From Pochonia chlamydosporia 170 (Eukaryota > Ascomycota > Sordariomycetes > Hypocreales > Clavicipitaceae), in the NCBI RefSeq assembly GCF_001653235.2, contig NC_035794.1, forward strand, positions 3,596,001-3,660,000: a stretch of DNA of 64,000 nt, read 5' to 3'. A program made the position numbers and the translations under genes. Under the pieces are notes generated by a model. That model saw nothing but the letters and a program-made list of their open reading frames with translations. It was not told the DNA's origin and ran no database searches. Shown one piece after another: positions 47,635 to 62,488 of this stretch. Position 1 is the stretch's first letter. Each line of letters starts with the position of its first letter.

Positions 47635-48149
47635 GACAATGGTGGCTGACTCTATGATCTTCAGCCTTAGGCTTGTGACCTGGGGCCTGGGGTGGAAGGT
47701 TCTAGAAACATATTGACACAACGTATTAATATACATTTCACTTACTGAGTCTAGAAGAAGGAAATGCACAGAGTAGACAACAGTAATAGACGCAATTTAA
47801 GCTTTAGCAACGCAAGTGATGTGCGAGTTTTTGAAACACTGCGATATAAGTGATCATAGTCTCGAGCCTTTTAATCAAGCTATTCTCGATATTGCTACCT
47901 AGTGACATGGCATTTGGCTCATGACATCTCAACCCATTGTCTGAACTATGAGACTGCAACCACAGACTTGTGGTTCTATGTTTATGGACGATAGTTCAAG
48001 ATTAATATCGCGATGGCTGCCAGCAGCTATTATACCAGCACTTGCCCCTCTAGGCTCTTCTGCCGCAGCTGAGTTCCTCTCCCATGTGTCATCCTGCGGC
48101 GTTGCCCTTATTTCAAGCGTCTCCAGTTCACCTGCTCTATTATTCTCAA

Positions 48150-48728
48150 TGAAACTTTATGGACAGATTGGACATAATTCTGAAAATAATCCAAGTGCTA
48201 AAAAACCTCGTCCCTGCATTTGGGATGATAGCATGCCAACGCGACACCTTAAGCCATAGCGGCCTCCCGTTCTGTCAGATGCTGGTCGTTAAAGTGGTTA
48301 TTTTGTATTGTTGGATAACACCACTAAAATGTGCGCTTAGCAGTTATTAGCCGCTTGTCGCTAATACAATTAGGGCACTAGCTGGCGTTCATAAGAAGAG
48401 GAAATAGATTAGCTTTACACCACGCTTTAAACGCTGGAGACTCTTCCTTAACAAATTGGTGGACAGGAACTTGCACGGGAGGTATTAGTTAAGACTGATG
48501 GGGCTTGCTGGTGTCCCTTTTGTCGCAAAGTGCAACCATAAGGTTAACCACCTTGACTCTTAAGCGGCAAATTTGTTTATCCGTCAAGTCTTTAGGCTAA
48601 AAGCAGAGTATCTTAGCTAGTCTAGCGCGTTTAGGGATAATAAGGTTAATAGCAAGCTCTTTATACTGCTCTTCTACCTTCCTGCAGGCTTGCGCTTTAA
48701 TGTCCCAGGTCGGATAATAGTAGAAATA
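48150..48728 (-). pseudogene. DUF3435 recombinase-family relic, C-terminal part
   Basis: Read on the minus strand from 48728 down, one frame gives PTWDIKAQACRKVEEQY, LIIPKRARLAKILCF, DLTDKQICRLRV, VNLMVALCDKRDTSKP and then a zinc-finger-like tail (CPNCISDKRL, NNHFNDQHL, YHPKCRDEVF, VQSVHK). This is the C-terminal half of fungal DUF3435 proteins, the tyrosine-recombinase family that includes Starship captains. About five internal TAG/TAA stops stand where the family has Gln, Arg or Trp, consistent with RIP. It continues directly from the inverted middle part (48957-49429) once one 5-bp duplication is removed. Confidence 0.85.
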
Positions 48729-48956
48729 TGTAACGGTCCAAGCGAGTATATTGACAACTGGCTAGGTGACTAGAACAAGTATCCAAAGCTAAGGAGAAAA
48801 GGAAAAGGAGAACAAGAAGAAAAGAGCTTGCAGAGCTCTTATAGGCCTATAAGCTTGCTTCTGCTAATCTCGCTTATTGCTGGGGGTTACTAGCGACAAG
48901 GCTGGGGACGAAGGCGAGAGTGTAAGCCGAGCCACCATCGGGCTCAGCCCGTTACA
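48729..48956. repeat. Solo-LTR-like repeat, copy A (228 bp)
   Basis: Begins TGTAACGGTCC and ends GCCCGTTACA, i.e. TG...CA ends with short inverted termini, as in LTRs. It is about 96% identical to the reverse complement of 49430-49658; most differences are C/T or G/A transitions. Flanks are AAATA (left) and AATTA (right). No internal retrotransposon domain lies next to it, hence solo. Confidence 0.8.
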
Positions 48957-49429
48957 AATTATACTATTCTCCCTTTATTCCTCTGTGTATTCTTATAGTA
49001 CTTATATGCTAAGTAGATTAGCTTGCTAGGCGATACGCCTAATTTAGTTTGCGACCAGATAATGCGGCATAATCCTAGGTTTTCCACCTTCTTTAGTGCG
49101 TACCTAAATAAGATTATAAGGTTTAACCTCTAAAATGCCTTCCTAGAAGAGGAGAAATAGAATTAGTTATTTTAGATGTTCGCACATATTAGCCTCACCT
49201 AAGACCCCTAAGCAACCTGCAATATAGTGCTAGATAAAGTATAGGCTTAGGTGCTACCTAATCTAGATATTACAGAACTAGAAGAGGAGCGTGCGCAATT
49301 AAAGCAGGGCTAGTATTAAATTGCCAGCTATAAAAATAAAGAGAAAATACAGGAGCTTACAGACAAAATTAGAACGAAAAAGGCAGAGCAAGAGAAGCGG
49401 ATTGTTAAGAACTATTACGAGTATTATTT
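48957..49429 (+). pseudogene. DUF3435 recombinase-family relic, inverted middle part
   Basis: Here the family reads on the plus strand: DQIMRHNPRFSTFFSAYLNK, IIRFNL-NAFLEEEK, MFAHISLT-DP, LPNLDITELEEERAQLKQG and KIQELTDKIRTKKAEQEKRIV up to YYEYYF at the edge of repeat copy B. The MRH...AYLN segment is the part expected to carry the recombinase His/Tyr motif (inference). The first 70 bp look like an intron (GTAAG lies at the original junction) or decayed coding sequence. This block is flipped relative to the parts on either side. Confidence 0.87.
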
Positions 49430-49658
49430 TGTAACGGGCTAAGCCCGATGGTGGCTCGGCTTACACTCTCGCCTTCGTCCCCAGCCTTGTCGCTGGTAAC
49501 CCCCAGCAACAAGCGAGATTAGCAGAAGCAAGCTTACAGGCCTATAAGAGCTCTGCAAGCTCTTTTCTTCTTGTTCTCCTTTTCCTTTTCTCCTTAGCTT
49601 TGGATACTCGTTCTAGTCGTTCTAGCCAGTTGTCAATATACTCGCTTGGACCGTTACA
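49430..49658. repeat. Solo-LTR-like repeat, copy B (229 bp, opposite orientation)
   Basis: Begins TGTAACGGGCTAAGCCCG and ends GGACCGTTACA, the reverse complement of copy A with one length difference and a few transitions. Flanks are TATTT (left) and TAATT (right). Together with copy A it forms a large inverted repeat around 473 bp. Confidence 0.8.
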
Positions 49659-49890
49659 TAATTAGCTTACTATTAGCAGTATTAGCAGCGCCTCTACGAG
49701 CAAATCTTAGCGTCTAAGCCTTCTTATGCCTGGAATTAAGACTTTACTGCCCTGTATTGTAACTAAGTTTTAAGTATTATATTGCCTTATTAGTAGAGAG
49801 GTTACAGCCTTAAACGCGGCGGAAAACTGGCACCTTAAGCATCTTCTCTTTCCACCGCAGCAGAGTGCACTTAGTTAGACCCTAGACCTG
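49659..49890 (-). pseudogene. DUF3435 recombinase-family relic, upstream part
   Basis: On the minus strand, from about 49890 down to the repeat, one frame gives CTLLRWKEKMLKVPVFRRV, NLSTNKAI, LKLSYNTGQ, SLNSRHKKA and LRFARRGAANTAN, with RIP-type stops. RFARRGAAN is the Arg-containing motif of the family. The frame leads toward the start of the middle segment (48957), now on the other strand. Sequence further upstream (49890-50470) is too decayed or unrelated to follow. Confidence 0.8.
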
Positions 49891-50477
49891 TGATTTAAAC
49901 ACACAGGATGCGTTGGTTAGGCTTGCCTGTCGCGTGCTTCATTTCCCTTCTTTGAGTTGCATGAGATATTTCTCCACTTGGCCTTGCACATGTTTTCACC
50001 GTCCGTGCAGGCCAGATTTTAAGTTTTGGCGGCGACATGGGCCCTAGCAACTCATGGGCCCCTTCAGGCGGAGCCCAGACCCGAGGCCCGAAACTAACTA
50101 ACTACGGACAGCGGACCCCTCCCATCATCGGTGGTGAGCAATCGGAATTAGTGCCTTGCAGCGCCACGGCCGGGTAACATACAATGTGATGTGGGTGCTG
50201 TGGCCGCTGAGCATTCGGCCAATTACTCGGAGCGGATTCGAAGCCGATCAGCGGCGAATGATGGAAGGTGATATGAGCCAACTGTTCGTCAGTGCTTAAA
50301 CCTCTTTGCCGTCTGCGCCACACCCCAATCACCCGACCCCATCTTGTCTTGCCGTACGCCAAGAAGGCTTGGTGGAGTCCTGCTCCCGCCTCGTGCGGTA
50401 GGCCCACAACGCCCAATTTCTACGTGCGCCAAGAACCGCCCCACATACGTCCTGAACTCTGGGGTAAACAGCTGTGA
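49891..50477. other. Intergenic between recombinase relic and LysM relic
   Basis: About 590 bp; base composition changes from AT-rich to GC-rich near 49980-50050. No gene seen. Confidence 0.4.
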
Positions 50478-56867: not shown

Positions 56868-59800
56868 TCATTGAGCTTCCTTTTCCCCGTTGGCGCCCGT
56901 AGAACGATCCCTCTTCTCAGAGTTGGCTTCACTGTCCACATTGGAACCATCTTCATCCTCGCCACTAGCATTGCCACTCTTAAAATAATGGCCAAAGGTG
57001 CGAGTCTCCAGATCAGTCTGATGATTGGTCCTCTTTCTCGCCTGTCGCCGGAAGTAGACTCGCTTAGCCCACTTCCAGGCTTCAATGCCCAAGAAGAAGA
57101 GGACGGCTTCGACAAAAACAATGCCCCATTCCCAGCTGATGCTGGCGTGCTTAAACACAACCGTGTTCAGACCAGGGATGTAAATAATTGGGAACATGGT
57201 GACAAAGCCTGCGACAATAGCCCAGAAGAGGAACTTGTTGCGCCAGACATCGATGATCCATTGCGTAAAGTAGCGCTTGCTCTTGGGCTGCATGCGGAAG
57301 AAGGATCGGCGCATGTTGACCATTTCCCACGCCAGGAAGAGAGCAAACCAGGTGAGGCATGCGAATGTCGTGGCACGAGCGCGGAATACAACCTTACACT
57401 CCTCAGAGTACTCGTTGTTGCAGTTGTCACCGAGGTCAGCAGCGCCGTTGCCAAAACCATATAAGACGAGGACGAAGGACGCCAGGCAGAGGCCTGACAT
57501 CCAGAGGCCGTAGACCACCATGTCAACCAAAAGTTCCGGGGTAAAGACACCTTGCTTCAACTGAAGTCGTGTTGTTAGTAAATGTAACTCCTGTTTGAGA
57601 TGATTCATAGGATGACTTACGTTCTGAGGTGGTCGTTGCATGATATCCGGAGCAGCAATCTCAAACCCGAGACCCATATCAGGCATACCAGAGGTAATCA
57701 TGATAATCCAAAGAATTTCCACAGGAGCCAGAGGGAACACGGAAATGCCGCGCTTGTCCTTAAAGACGAGACCAATCAAAAGAGTACAGGCCTGGGCGAT
57801 GTTTTCCGCCAAGACGTGAAGAATGAATTTTTGGATGTTGTCAAACATACGACGGCCTTCTTCAACGGCGTTGAGAATAGAAGCAAAATTGTCATCCGTA
57901 AGCACAATATCGGAAGCCTCTTTGGCGACATCGGATCCAGCTTGTCCCATAGCAATGCCAACGTCAGCGCGCTTCAAGCTAGGCGAGTCGTTGACACCGT
58001 CACCCGTCATGGCGACAAAGCACTTTCGACGATGGAGAGCTTCAATCATGCGAACTTTGGTCTGAGGGGCGCATCGGGCGACGACAAGGGGGAGCAGAGG
58101 AAGCTCGTCAATTTCCTGGTCAGTTAGTTTGTCGAAATCTGATGCAGCCATTACCATGGTCTTGGCCACATCAGCGGCAATCTCATTCATCCTGGTTGGT
58201 AGGATTCCAACCTCCAAGGCAATAGCACGGGCGGTCTCTGGATGGTCACCAGTCAACATATGAACGCTGACACCGGCTTCATGGCACTTCCGCACGGACG
58301 GCGCGGATTCGGGACGAGGGGGGTCATAGAGGCCAATGAGACCGCGAAAGACTAAATCCTGTTCGAAATCGCCACGCTCCAACTCGGCCTCGTTCTCCTT
58401 GACATGGGGAATATCCGTTCGGCTAGCCAGGGCAAGCACACGAAGGCCGAGGCGAGCCATGGCCTCCATGTTCTTGAGCACATCTTCCTGAATATCCTCA
58501 GTCAGATCTTGGATTTCGTCACCCACAGCATATTGAGGGCAGGAGTGAAGGAGGCGCTCAACAGCACCCTTGGTGAAGAGCCACTGCTTCTTGGTTTCCT
58601 TGTTTTCGAAAATGACAGACATCTTTTTCACATCAGAATCAAAAGGGAACTCGGCAACCTGCTGCCATTGGGCGTTTTCACCGGCGGATAGGCGGAGACG
58701 ATTCCAGTTGAATCGTGACGCGAACACTTGGATGGCGATCTCGGTTGGGTCACCTCGTCCATGCCACTCATCATCCACCTTGTGTACGGAGGCAAGGTTG
58801 GCAAGCGAGGCAATGTTAAGATACTCCCTGAGCGTGGCATCCGAGGTAGCAGCATCAGCACCATCAATAGGCTCACCATCGGCATCGTCGCCGCGGAAAT
58901 TGATATCCTTGGGTTGGGCAGTCTTGAGGCCGAGTTGACCAACCGTTGGGTTGAAGGGCTCGCTGGTAGTCCCGACGGAGTATGTACCACGCCCTGGAAC
59001 CCAGGCTTTTTTGACAATCATGTTACCCTGGGTAAGGGTACCAGTCTTGTCGGAGCAGATATCTAAGGGCAAGTTAAGCGATTGACAGGGTATAAGGGGG
59101 TGCGACGCTTACTAGAAACTGCACCGAGAGCTTCAAGACTCTTCAAGTTGCGAACAATGACGTGACGCTGGACCATGCGCTTCGTACCTGCGGCCATGGT
59201 GATGGTAAGAACGACAATAAGCGACGCAGGAATCATGGACAGGCCTGTAGCAACTGCATAAATGATAACCTCTTGTTTGGTGTCAAATTTGTTGGCGCCA
59301 AGGACAATGATGGCGCATACAATAGCCGTGCCTAGCAGGAGCAGGGCGAGCTTGGATAGTTTCTTTTGAAGAGGGGTGCCAACATTCACACCGAGGAAGC
59401 GGCCAACAGCGTCTGAAAATGTGAGAGACCACGCTTGAAGCCAGCGGCCGAAGCTAGTAGTGCCATCATCTCGACGCTTGGGCTCACGTCGTCGCGAGCT
59501 TTTGCCACGGAGCGCAGCAGCAATCTGACCGATTTCAGTATAAAGCCCAGTAGCAAATACTACGCCTCGTGCTCGGCCTTTGGTGACAGTGGAAGAGCTG
59601 TAAGCAACATTGAGACGGTCGCCTGGTCCAGTATCATCTGCATATGTCGGAACAGGTTCCTTTCGAACGGGGAGAGATTCCCCGGTCAGCAGCGCTTCGT
59701 TGGTCTCAAAGTTGACTGCTTCGACCAGACGGATATCAGCAGGAATTGTGTCTCCGGTCTTGAGCTCAACCATGTCACCAGGGACGATTTCTGCCGTGAC

Positions 59801-60247
59801 AACAGTCTCATTGTTGCCATTTCGAATCGCTTGTGCAGTAGGAGAGCTGAGGGATCGAAGGGAATCCATGGTTTTGGCAGCCTTGAACTCTTGAAAGAAA
59901 CCGACAACGATGTTGAGAATAATAACAGCACTAATGACACCACCTTCGATCCAGGACTGAATGCCAAAAGAGGCGCCCATAGCCAGAATAAGCACAAGTG
60001 TCAGGGCATTCGCGATTTGTCCAATGAAGATCTTGAGCGGCTGGACACCCTCTTGCTCGCCAAATTCGTTGCGGCCATACTCTTCCAGCCGTTTCTTGGC
60101 CTCATCGGTGCTAAGACCAACTTCAACGTTGGCCTGGAGCTGATCAACAACATCGTCGATCTTCAATGCGTGTGCAGGAGCAGTCATGGGCTTGTTTGCC
60201 TGCCCACTGACATGCGCCTGCACCTCATCACCTTCTTTGCCGGCCAT
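56868..60247 (-). CDS. ENA1: ENA-type P-type Na+/Li+(K+) efflux ATPase
   Basis: Exons 59113-60247, 57621-59062 and 56868-57560 (complement) join to 1,089 aa, normal for fungal type IID ATPases. Landmarks in order: cation-ATPase N-domain (LSTDEAKKRLEEYGRNEF), two membrane helices, the TGES loop (LLTGESLPVRK), the IPASL helix 4, DKTGT with phosphorylated Asp383, KGAVERLL for nucleotide binding, LTGDHPETA, TGDGVNDSPSLKRADVGIAMG and six C-terminal membrane helices. These enzymes expel Na+ and Li+ and give salt and alkali tolerance. Intron 1 (50 nt) falls just before DKTGT. Intron 2 (60 nt) is in frame and stop-free, but has GTAAGT, TACTAAC and TTCAG. The C-terminal tail is charged and disordered. 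ATG 60247 is the first in frame. Confidence 0.93.
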
Positions 60248-62488
60248 TACTGCCGTTCGCAAATCAGATAACAGGCGTTGTGTATTTTCCTTATCACACG
60301 GATTCCGTTGTTGTTTATAAACGTAGTTGTATAAAGACTCCGCTTGGGCACGTAGGATGAGTTGTTGAATCAACCAGCAAGGTGCTTCGGATACCCCAAA
60401 GAGCTCCGAGTTACGACGACCAAAATGAGTGGCACACGGAATGAAGTTGAGAAGCCAAAGGTTGAGGGAGCAGAGAGCTTTTTAGGTTGTCCGGGGAGGC
60501 GTCATGGTGGGTAGGCAGATAGAGCACATTGGCGAATTGACGATGAGAAGAAATATGAATGCCAATGTCAATACTGGGATACCCAGGCAATAAGCCCCAT
60601 CCTCGATTTCATCACGCCGCAAGTTTCCATGGTGAGATGGGGACTTTCATTGTTAGTTACAGGATAGTGCCAATTCGCCAGTCTTGGCAGCTGGGCCATG
60701 GTGATGGTGAGGTATGGAGTCAATACAGTGCCGCACAGTCTGAGAAGTTGATGGCGTGTATGTGGATGCATAAAACTCCATCTGCACCAAGATGGGGTCA
60801 CTGCCGTTTTTCTCGTAGGGAAGTCTTGTTGGAATGGATAAAGCAGTTTGTTCGAGGCCATTAGCATGAAAGGGGATATTGTCGTTGTTTTGTTATTATG
60901 TTGTTGAGGTACTTGTCCTCACCTGTTGGAGTTGTCTTGAGATGTCTTGCATTCGGCATCTGAGATACCTGAGACCAAGTCAGACAATCGGACCAGATTG
61001 CATGGTCGTCCCACTTGTGTCGCAGCATGTTGGCCAATGGCGGGAATACTATGACTGGCATCGAGGCTAGGGCTGTATCGTGATGATAGCGAACGGACAT
61101 CTCCAGCTTCACCTGTCAAGCAAGGCTGACATTTCACACAGCCGAATTGCTACCAAAAAACAAACGCAATTCTGAGCTTAGGGAGTTGATCCTCGTGGGT
61201 CATACACACGGCGCTCTTTTAGCAGTCTGTTACGCAGGTTAGCACTATAGAATACTTCATAGAGCTGCCTGCTCAAGTTGTCTGGAGAGTCAACCGGGCC
61301 TCAGGGCTGCCTACAATACGAGCGGACAATCCACAATTTCAAATCTGCACAACGAAGGCGTAGTGAAGACTGCAAGATTCTTCAGATGCCGACGATAGCA
61401 AGATGATCCAGTCCGTGAGAGACTATATCAGTTTGTACGACGGTGATTCGCAATAACTCGCACTTTGCCCGAATGGTGAGACCCATTGCATCTGCCATTC
61501 GCGTCGACCGTCAAACCAGGCAACTTCCGCTTCACAAAACAAGCCTCGCAAGATGACAACCACAGCAGGTTTGCAGACACTGTGTACCGGGACGGGTTGC
61601 ACACACGTATCCAACCGCCATGTCTCGTACAGGCTTGGCGGACCATGGATTAACGAATAAGCATACCAAGGCGGTCGAGATTTTTCGCCACGATGTTCGG
61701 CGCCAAGCGATAAGGTTGGAAGATTACTGACGGTTAAGACCGTGGAGGCGAGAATTCTGGTGCTTATGGGCCAACATGATGCGGGTCCAGCAACCAAAGT
61801 TTGGTCAAGGTGGGAATTGGGGCTTGGCTTGCATTGGCTTTGCTTTCGTCCTCAACTGTTGGCTGTTGTGGAATGTAATCATTGTCAAGTGTGCCCTGCC
61901 AACTCCGACATCGACCAGCCAAGGCCAGTCTTGTGTCAGTGTCAACGGGGGTGGACCACACTAACTTGGCTTGCCGTTGCAAATTGAGGTCTTCGTCGAA
62001 GCCCGAGAGAAGCAGCCCAGCTCAATCTGGCAAAGTAGGAGCCAAGCGTCGTCACCGACAGAAACCATCCGTCTCCGTCATAACTGACCGTAGTGCAATT
62101 GCATCATCACATGCAGCATCTCCATATCTCAGTACCGATTGGATTGTCGCTAGTTACCGCTTCATCAAACCCATCATGGCACAGACATTCTGCCTTCGGC
62201 ATACGGAGTATGGGGAAGGAAATATTCTGTCGCATCTTTCTCCACTGCACGTGCGCGAGTCAGCATTGCCGATGCTCCAGGCGGTCATTGCCTGTCCCTG
62301 CCACAGTAATAACTCGATAACAAGTGGCGGTAATTGACGGTTCGTTATGACGCGTGCGGAGGTGTTTTTGAGACAGCGGGGTGTATGAGCGTGTAAATAG
62401 TGCAAGACGTATACAGTCTGTGGCTAAAGTATTTGCCTACCTAGTATATACTAAACATTAATATATCATAGTATCTATTGGTATTCAA

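Follow-up and report, generated by a model that had tools for sequence, protein, structure and literature searches.

A 473-bp segment of a decayed DUF3435 gene in Pochonia chlamydosporia strain 170 lies reversed between two oppositely oriented solo long terminal repeats (LTRs), and the 5-bp target duplications of these repeats are exchanged between them. We conclude, with a probability of roughly 0.88, that two LTR elements inserted into a decayed DUF3435 copy and that recombination between the inverted elements then reversed the middle. The window, meaning the whole stretch of DNA analyzed (64,000 nucleotides, C5:3596001-3660000), was compared with a genome of 44,215,803 bases in 49 contigs.

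Layout of the locus

The features of the locus, in window coordinates, are as follows.

47896-48728, minus strand: left flank, the 3′ part of the decayed DUF3435 gene; its closest paralogue is on contig C3
48724-48728, unstranded: AAATA, outer half of target duplication 1; it pairs with TATTT on the opposite strand at 49425-49429, and the 5-bp overlap is found in 3 of 3 paralogues
48729-48956, plus strand: solo LTR copy A, with ends TGTAACGG..CCCGTTACA; the parent element would be coded on the window minus strand
48957-48961, unstranded: AATTA, displaced inner half of target duplication 2; its counterpart, TAATT, is on the opposite strand at 49659-49663
48957-49429, plus strand: inverted middle segment of the DUF3435 gene, 473 bp; the gene flanks are on minus
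49425-49429, unstranded: TATTT (read directly), displaced inner half of target duplication 1
49430-49658, minus strand: solo LTR copy B, 96.5% identical to copy A, with 8 differing alignment columns
49659-49663, unstranded: TAATT, outer half of target duplication 2; the 5-bp overlap is found in the C1 and C14 paralogues and is not placeable in C3
49659-49925, minus strand: right flank, in which the decayed DUF3435 gene continues upstream; an apparent intron donor adjoins junction B

As an inverted repeat, copies A and B form arms of 194 nt at 97% complementarity and 42 nt at 98%. The whole affected gene remnant spans approximately 47896-49925 and is thus longer than the interval of 48724-49663 singled out by the sequence-only reading.

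Orientation of the middle segment

The left flank, the middle segment, and the right flank were each compared separately with the genome, and three LTR-free paralogous DUF3435 loci, on contigs C14, C1, and C3, matched all three pieces. In every one of them the middle segment matched on the strand opposite to both flanks. Counts of shared 11-mers on the gene strand and the other strand were 85 and 9 for C14, 37 and 3 for C1, and 43 and 1 for C3. The proposal that the reversed interval 48957-49429 should align with DUF3435 genes was thereby borne out. These un-inverted references are paralogues, not alleles of the locus, and their identity ranges from 66 to 85% by piece: the left flank matched C3 at 83.4% over 833 bp (blastn), and the right flank was 83% identical to C14, 79% to C1, and 77% to C3.

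Adjacent pieces overlapped by exactly 5 bp at junction A in all three paralogues and at junction B in two (C14 and C1). In C3 the intron at junction B is too diverged to place, and the match to the middle piece ends at position 423 of 473. Strand in three of three paralogues and 5-bp overlaps at five of six junctions thus uphold the central claim that the middle was inverted between opposite LTRs.

The C1 paralogue has an open frame spanning junction A (a 366-amino-acid open reading frame [ORF]) with a DUF3435 match of 84.9 bits against a PF11917 cutoff of 25.8, and we therefore take the uninterrupted order to be the ancestral one. Both C1 and C3 read EYYFYHRPTWDI unbroken in the EYYF/YYYPTWDI region. 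It had been claimed that flipping the middle restores the reading frame exactly. Codon phase is indeed restored through EYYF/YYYPTWDI, but the restored frame is not open: there are 12 stops in the middle frame, of which the first two may fall in an intron, and at least 6 in the left frame. By eye, C1 has GTAAGT at the site of junction B, which appears to lie within an intron.

Exchange of the target duplications

Read in LTR orientation, the flanks are AAATA/AATTA for copy A and AATTA/AAATA for copy B, an exact exchange with 5 of 5 bases matching for both duplications. A base-for-base recount confirmed that the flanks are unequal within each copy and become perfect 5-bp duplications once the middle is flipped. 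Since the two 5-mers are one base apart and the own flanks of each copy agree at 4 of 5 positions, the flanks of A and B taken alone could be misread as two imperfect duplications. The strand of the middle in the paralogues and the junction overlaps provide independent evidence and decide for exchange.

The genome contains at least 44 copies of this LTR; the searches scored the best 40 of 118 to 137 first-look candidates each. Among the 44 copies listed, exact 5-bp flanks were kept in 20 and were unequal in 24, of which 6 (A, B, and 4 others) matched at 4 of 5 positions. At least two of the 44 (L083 and L122) are truncated, so their flanks are uninformative. Unlike the 20 copies with matching flanks, A and B exchanged theirs: they formed the only fully exchanged pair among 276 pairs of unequal-flank copies, and no other exchanged-duplication pair was found among the 44. 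One further one-sided match among unequal copies involved a full-length element on contig C7. Overall, the left flank of one copy equaled the right flank of another in 6 of 1,892 ordered pairs (0.0032); five of these reflect real relations (A/B twice, the C7 element, and L085/L086 twice) and one is chance. The rate expected from base composition is 0.0014. At these one-sided rates, both A/B flanks would match by chance with a probability of ~1e-5 or less.

L085 (C36:17068-17289) and L086 (C8:1154478-1154699) are identical LTR copies with the same target duplication, ATATG, which points to segmental duplication rather than two insertions.

Identity of the repeats

Copies of the family have TG..CA ends and 5-bp target duplications. 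A 5.7-kb full-length relative on contig C7 (C7:3022374-3028096) carries two direct terminal copies and the duplication TAAGG. Its interior of ~5.26 kb is 28.5% G+C, carries a repeat-induced point mutation (RIP) signature (TpA/ApT of 1.83; [CpA+TpG]/[ApC+GpT] of 0.30), and contains no open frame of 80 amino acids. Between the LTRs of this element is a decayed RVT_1 match containing 14 stops, and the rve profile alone gave no match on the decayed C7 copy. By tblastn, the element is collinear at 34% with residues 196 to 1193 of L120, an intact 1,271-amino-acid ORF elsewhere in the genome that encodes reverse transcriptase (RT) followed by integrase (rve). That order, together with the collinearity, identifies the repeat as Ty3/gypsy type. 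A DNA element with terminal inverted repeats, considered because the LTR ends are nearly palindromic, was set aside in view of the direct termini, TAAGG duplication, and decayed RT of the C7 copy. Solo LTRs dominate the family, with one full-length pair recognized by flanks among the 44 copies listed. The assignment of A and B as solo LTRs of opposite insertion, originally made from the window alone, agrees with the C7 relative, the TG..CA ends, the 5-bp duplications, and the inverted arms.

Ty3/gypsy solo LTRs are a known class in filamentous ascomycetes, and those LTRs share with A and B the TG..CA ends, 5-bp duplications, and a decayed full-length relative.

Decay of the DUF3435 gene

DUF3435 proteins are presumably Starship captain-like. 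The copy in the window gave no PF11917 match of its own and was compared by DNA only. It differs at 174 sites where C1 and C3 agree, and C>T or G>A accounts for 151 of these differences (right flank, 32 of 39; middle, 59 of 64; left flank, 60 of 71). CpA is the classical RIP target; of the 151 changes, 57 were in CpA (or TpG), 74 in CpG, and 20 elsewhere. The decay is thus RIP-like but extends beyond CpA, and ordinary CpG deamination may have played a part. RIP is reported in Metarhizium, a related genus (PMC4133081). C>T and G>A changes were nearly equal in all three pieces, and strand bias was consequently uninformative for dating the inversion.

Both copies of duplication 1 read TATTT, where C1 and C3 have TACTT, and both copies of duplication 2 read AATTA, where C1 has AATCG (C14 also ends in TTA). 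Since the derived-looking bases recur in both copies of each duplication, the first change at least (TATTT) preceded insertion and is therefore part of a gene decay that began earlier than the LTRs.

Sites at which a transversion distinguishes C1 from C3 show a change of affinity along the window copy. Of the 12 such sites in the right flank, 8 were C1-like, as were 12 of the first 17 sites of the middle. From middle position 345 (gene strand) onward, 5 of 6 sites were C3-like, as were 51 of the 54 left-flank sites. The C3-like signature is continuous from near the gene-strand end of the middle into the left flank, which indicates that those two pieces were once joined. The decayed copy at 47896-49925 is itself a mosaic, C1/C14-like upstream and through most of the middle and C3-like downstream, which suggests recombination or conversion between DUF3435 paralogues. 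We considered whether the LTR junction could be the join of two different genes and rejected this; the switch from C1/C14 to C3 occurs within the middle segment rather than at the junction.

Two further DUF3435 matches (G000 C7:251-1744 and C14:321699-323192) have equal scores of 206.9 bits and one TAA each. The former is at the start of its contig and the latter ~30 kb from a contig end, and the two are possibly a recent duplication of a captain-like gene.

Sequence of events and alternatives

In the favored reading, two Ty3/gypsy-type elements of the same family inserted in opposite directions, ~470 bp apart, into a partly decayed DUF3435 gene. Each insertion made a 5-bp target duplication, as the paralogues and the 5-mers show. 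Recombination between these inverted LTR-bearing elements, both of which are now solo LTRs, reversed the intervening DNA and swapped the inner halves of the duplications. Strand and 5-mers establish the reversal and the exchange, and homologous crossover is the probable route. The locus is a scar, and no function is implied.

A plausible variant, to which we give somewhat less than even odds, places the inversion between full-length elements, with each chimeric element reduced to a solo LTR afterwards. Two full-length elements of ~5.7 kb would present a much longer stretch of homology than the 228 bp of an LTR, and this route ends in the same final sequence; against it, no trace of internal element sequence remains at A or B, and solo LTRs prevail in the family. 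The earlier claim that the order of events can be read from the locus did not hold: an inversion with later LTR-LTR deletion and a deletion with later inversion both end in one and the same sequence, so the order of these two steps cannot be told.

Replication template switching, or breakage with annealing where the inverted LTRs fold back on each other, is a less likely but tenable route to the inversion in place of reciprocal crossover. Inverted repeats less than 1 kb apart favor fold-back, and among the 44 copies listed no pair other than A and B lies inverted within 10 kb. Two states are common to A and B and occur in none of 38 other copies (in an alignment made without four later-found copies); such private states fit nonreciprocal copying. 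More generally, they suggest either gene conversion with the exchange or a common source. Template switching and crossover, however, both leave exchanged duplications, and the data do not separate them.

Comparisons among LTR copies bear on where an exchange could have occurred. Copy B showed 0 differences from L056 over the first 86 columns and 9 over the remaining 143, whereas A and B differed by 4 and 4 over the same two blocks. This pattern fits conversion beside an exchange somewhere in LTR positions 49 to 92, although it is only suggestive. A mosaic of A involving L065 was equaled in 103 of 200,000 shuffles, the best of 76 comparisons and ~0.04 after correction. For B, a mosaic of L056 and A was equaled in 17,183 of 200,000 shuffles and one involving L079 in 12,392 of 200,000; the best of its 76 comparisons gave 0.0455 uncorrected, and chimerism of B is not significant. 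The A/B differences at positions 121, 148, 163, and 217 are C>T or G>A in CpA context and may be later than the exchange. Because CpA-context changes recur in decayed copies, an exchange between 163 and 217 was set aside.

A small invertible unit, with repeated flipping and conversion in the population that would preserve the likeness of A and B, is improbable; the two private states of A and B are the observation that would fit it.

An assembly artifact, in which the true order is un-inverted and the middle was joined the wrong way between similar inverted repeats, is very improbable, even though an orientation error would yield identical exchanged 5-mers. Exact identity between A and B extends over at most 71 bp, which is less than an ordinary Illumina read or the Allpaths-LG graph word of 96; given this limit, the copies should be separable and an orientation error is unlikely. 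PMC5773674 describes an assembly of strain 170 begun from Illumina reads with Allpaths-LG, a point in favor of such an error, and the later use of PacBio long reads for scaffolding and gap filling, a point against it. No N occurred in the 336,629 bases fetched from the assembly.

Finally, two separate insertions without inversion, each with a slightly mutated duplication (AAATA/AATTA), would agree with the 4-of-5 match of own flanks in A, B, and 4 other copies, but this account is refuted by the opposite-strand middle in all three paralogues and by the perfect match on exchange.

Relation to known inversions

The closest parallel to recombination between inverted LTRs in this gene is inversion 2z3 of Drosophila buzzatii, for which PMC2775673 describes opposite Galileo copies that are chimeric, exchanged duplications, and a single target in the standard arrangement. 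The A/B locus shares with it the opposite copies, the exchanged duplications, the single uninverted target, and no loss or gain at the breakpoints. Galileo is a DNA transposon with 7-bp duplications, inversion 2z3 is a polymorphic chromosomal one, and the copies are clearly chimeric; the A/B locus differs in its solo LTRs, 5-bp duplications, 473-bp segment, and weak evidence of chimerism. PMC2603318 catalogues inversions between human and chimpanzee that, as proposed here, are ascribed to recombination between retrotransposon copies; those involved L1 and Alu, not LTRs, and were found by two-species comparison. Ectopic recombination that causes an inversion is already known to leave exchanged duplications as its signature, as with Galileo in Drosophila, and the locus adds an example of a known process. 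A literature search on solo-LTR inversions with duplications found no title on exactly this case among the papers listed, and we claim no priority. In the main text of PMC5773674 (the strain 170 genome), the terms "inversion," "LTR," and "RIP" have 0 occurrences; that paper also describes a sister strain, 123, with 96.45% identity over matching parts.

The locus is a compact, single-genome fungal case of LTR-LTR inversion in which both duplications are intact and paralogues serve as the reference. It alters no view of mechanism. It cautions against taking every LTR copy whose flanks differ to be old or truncated, and it suggests that exchanged duplications could be used to screen one assembly for inversions without a second genome.

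Elsewhere in the window, two overlapping frames (56868-60481, minus strand) make up what appears to be a P-type Na/K-efflux ATPase gene, an ordinary neighbor.
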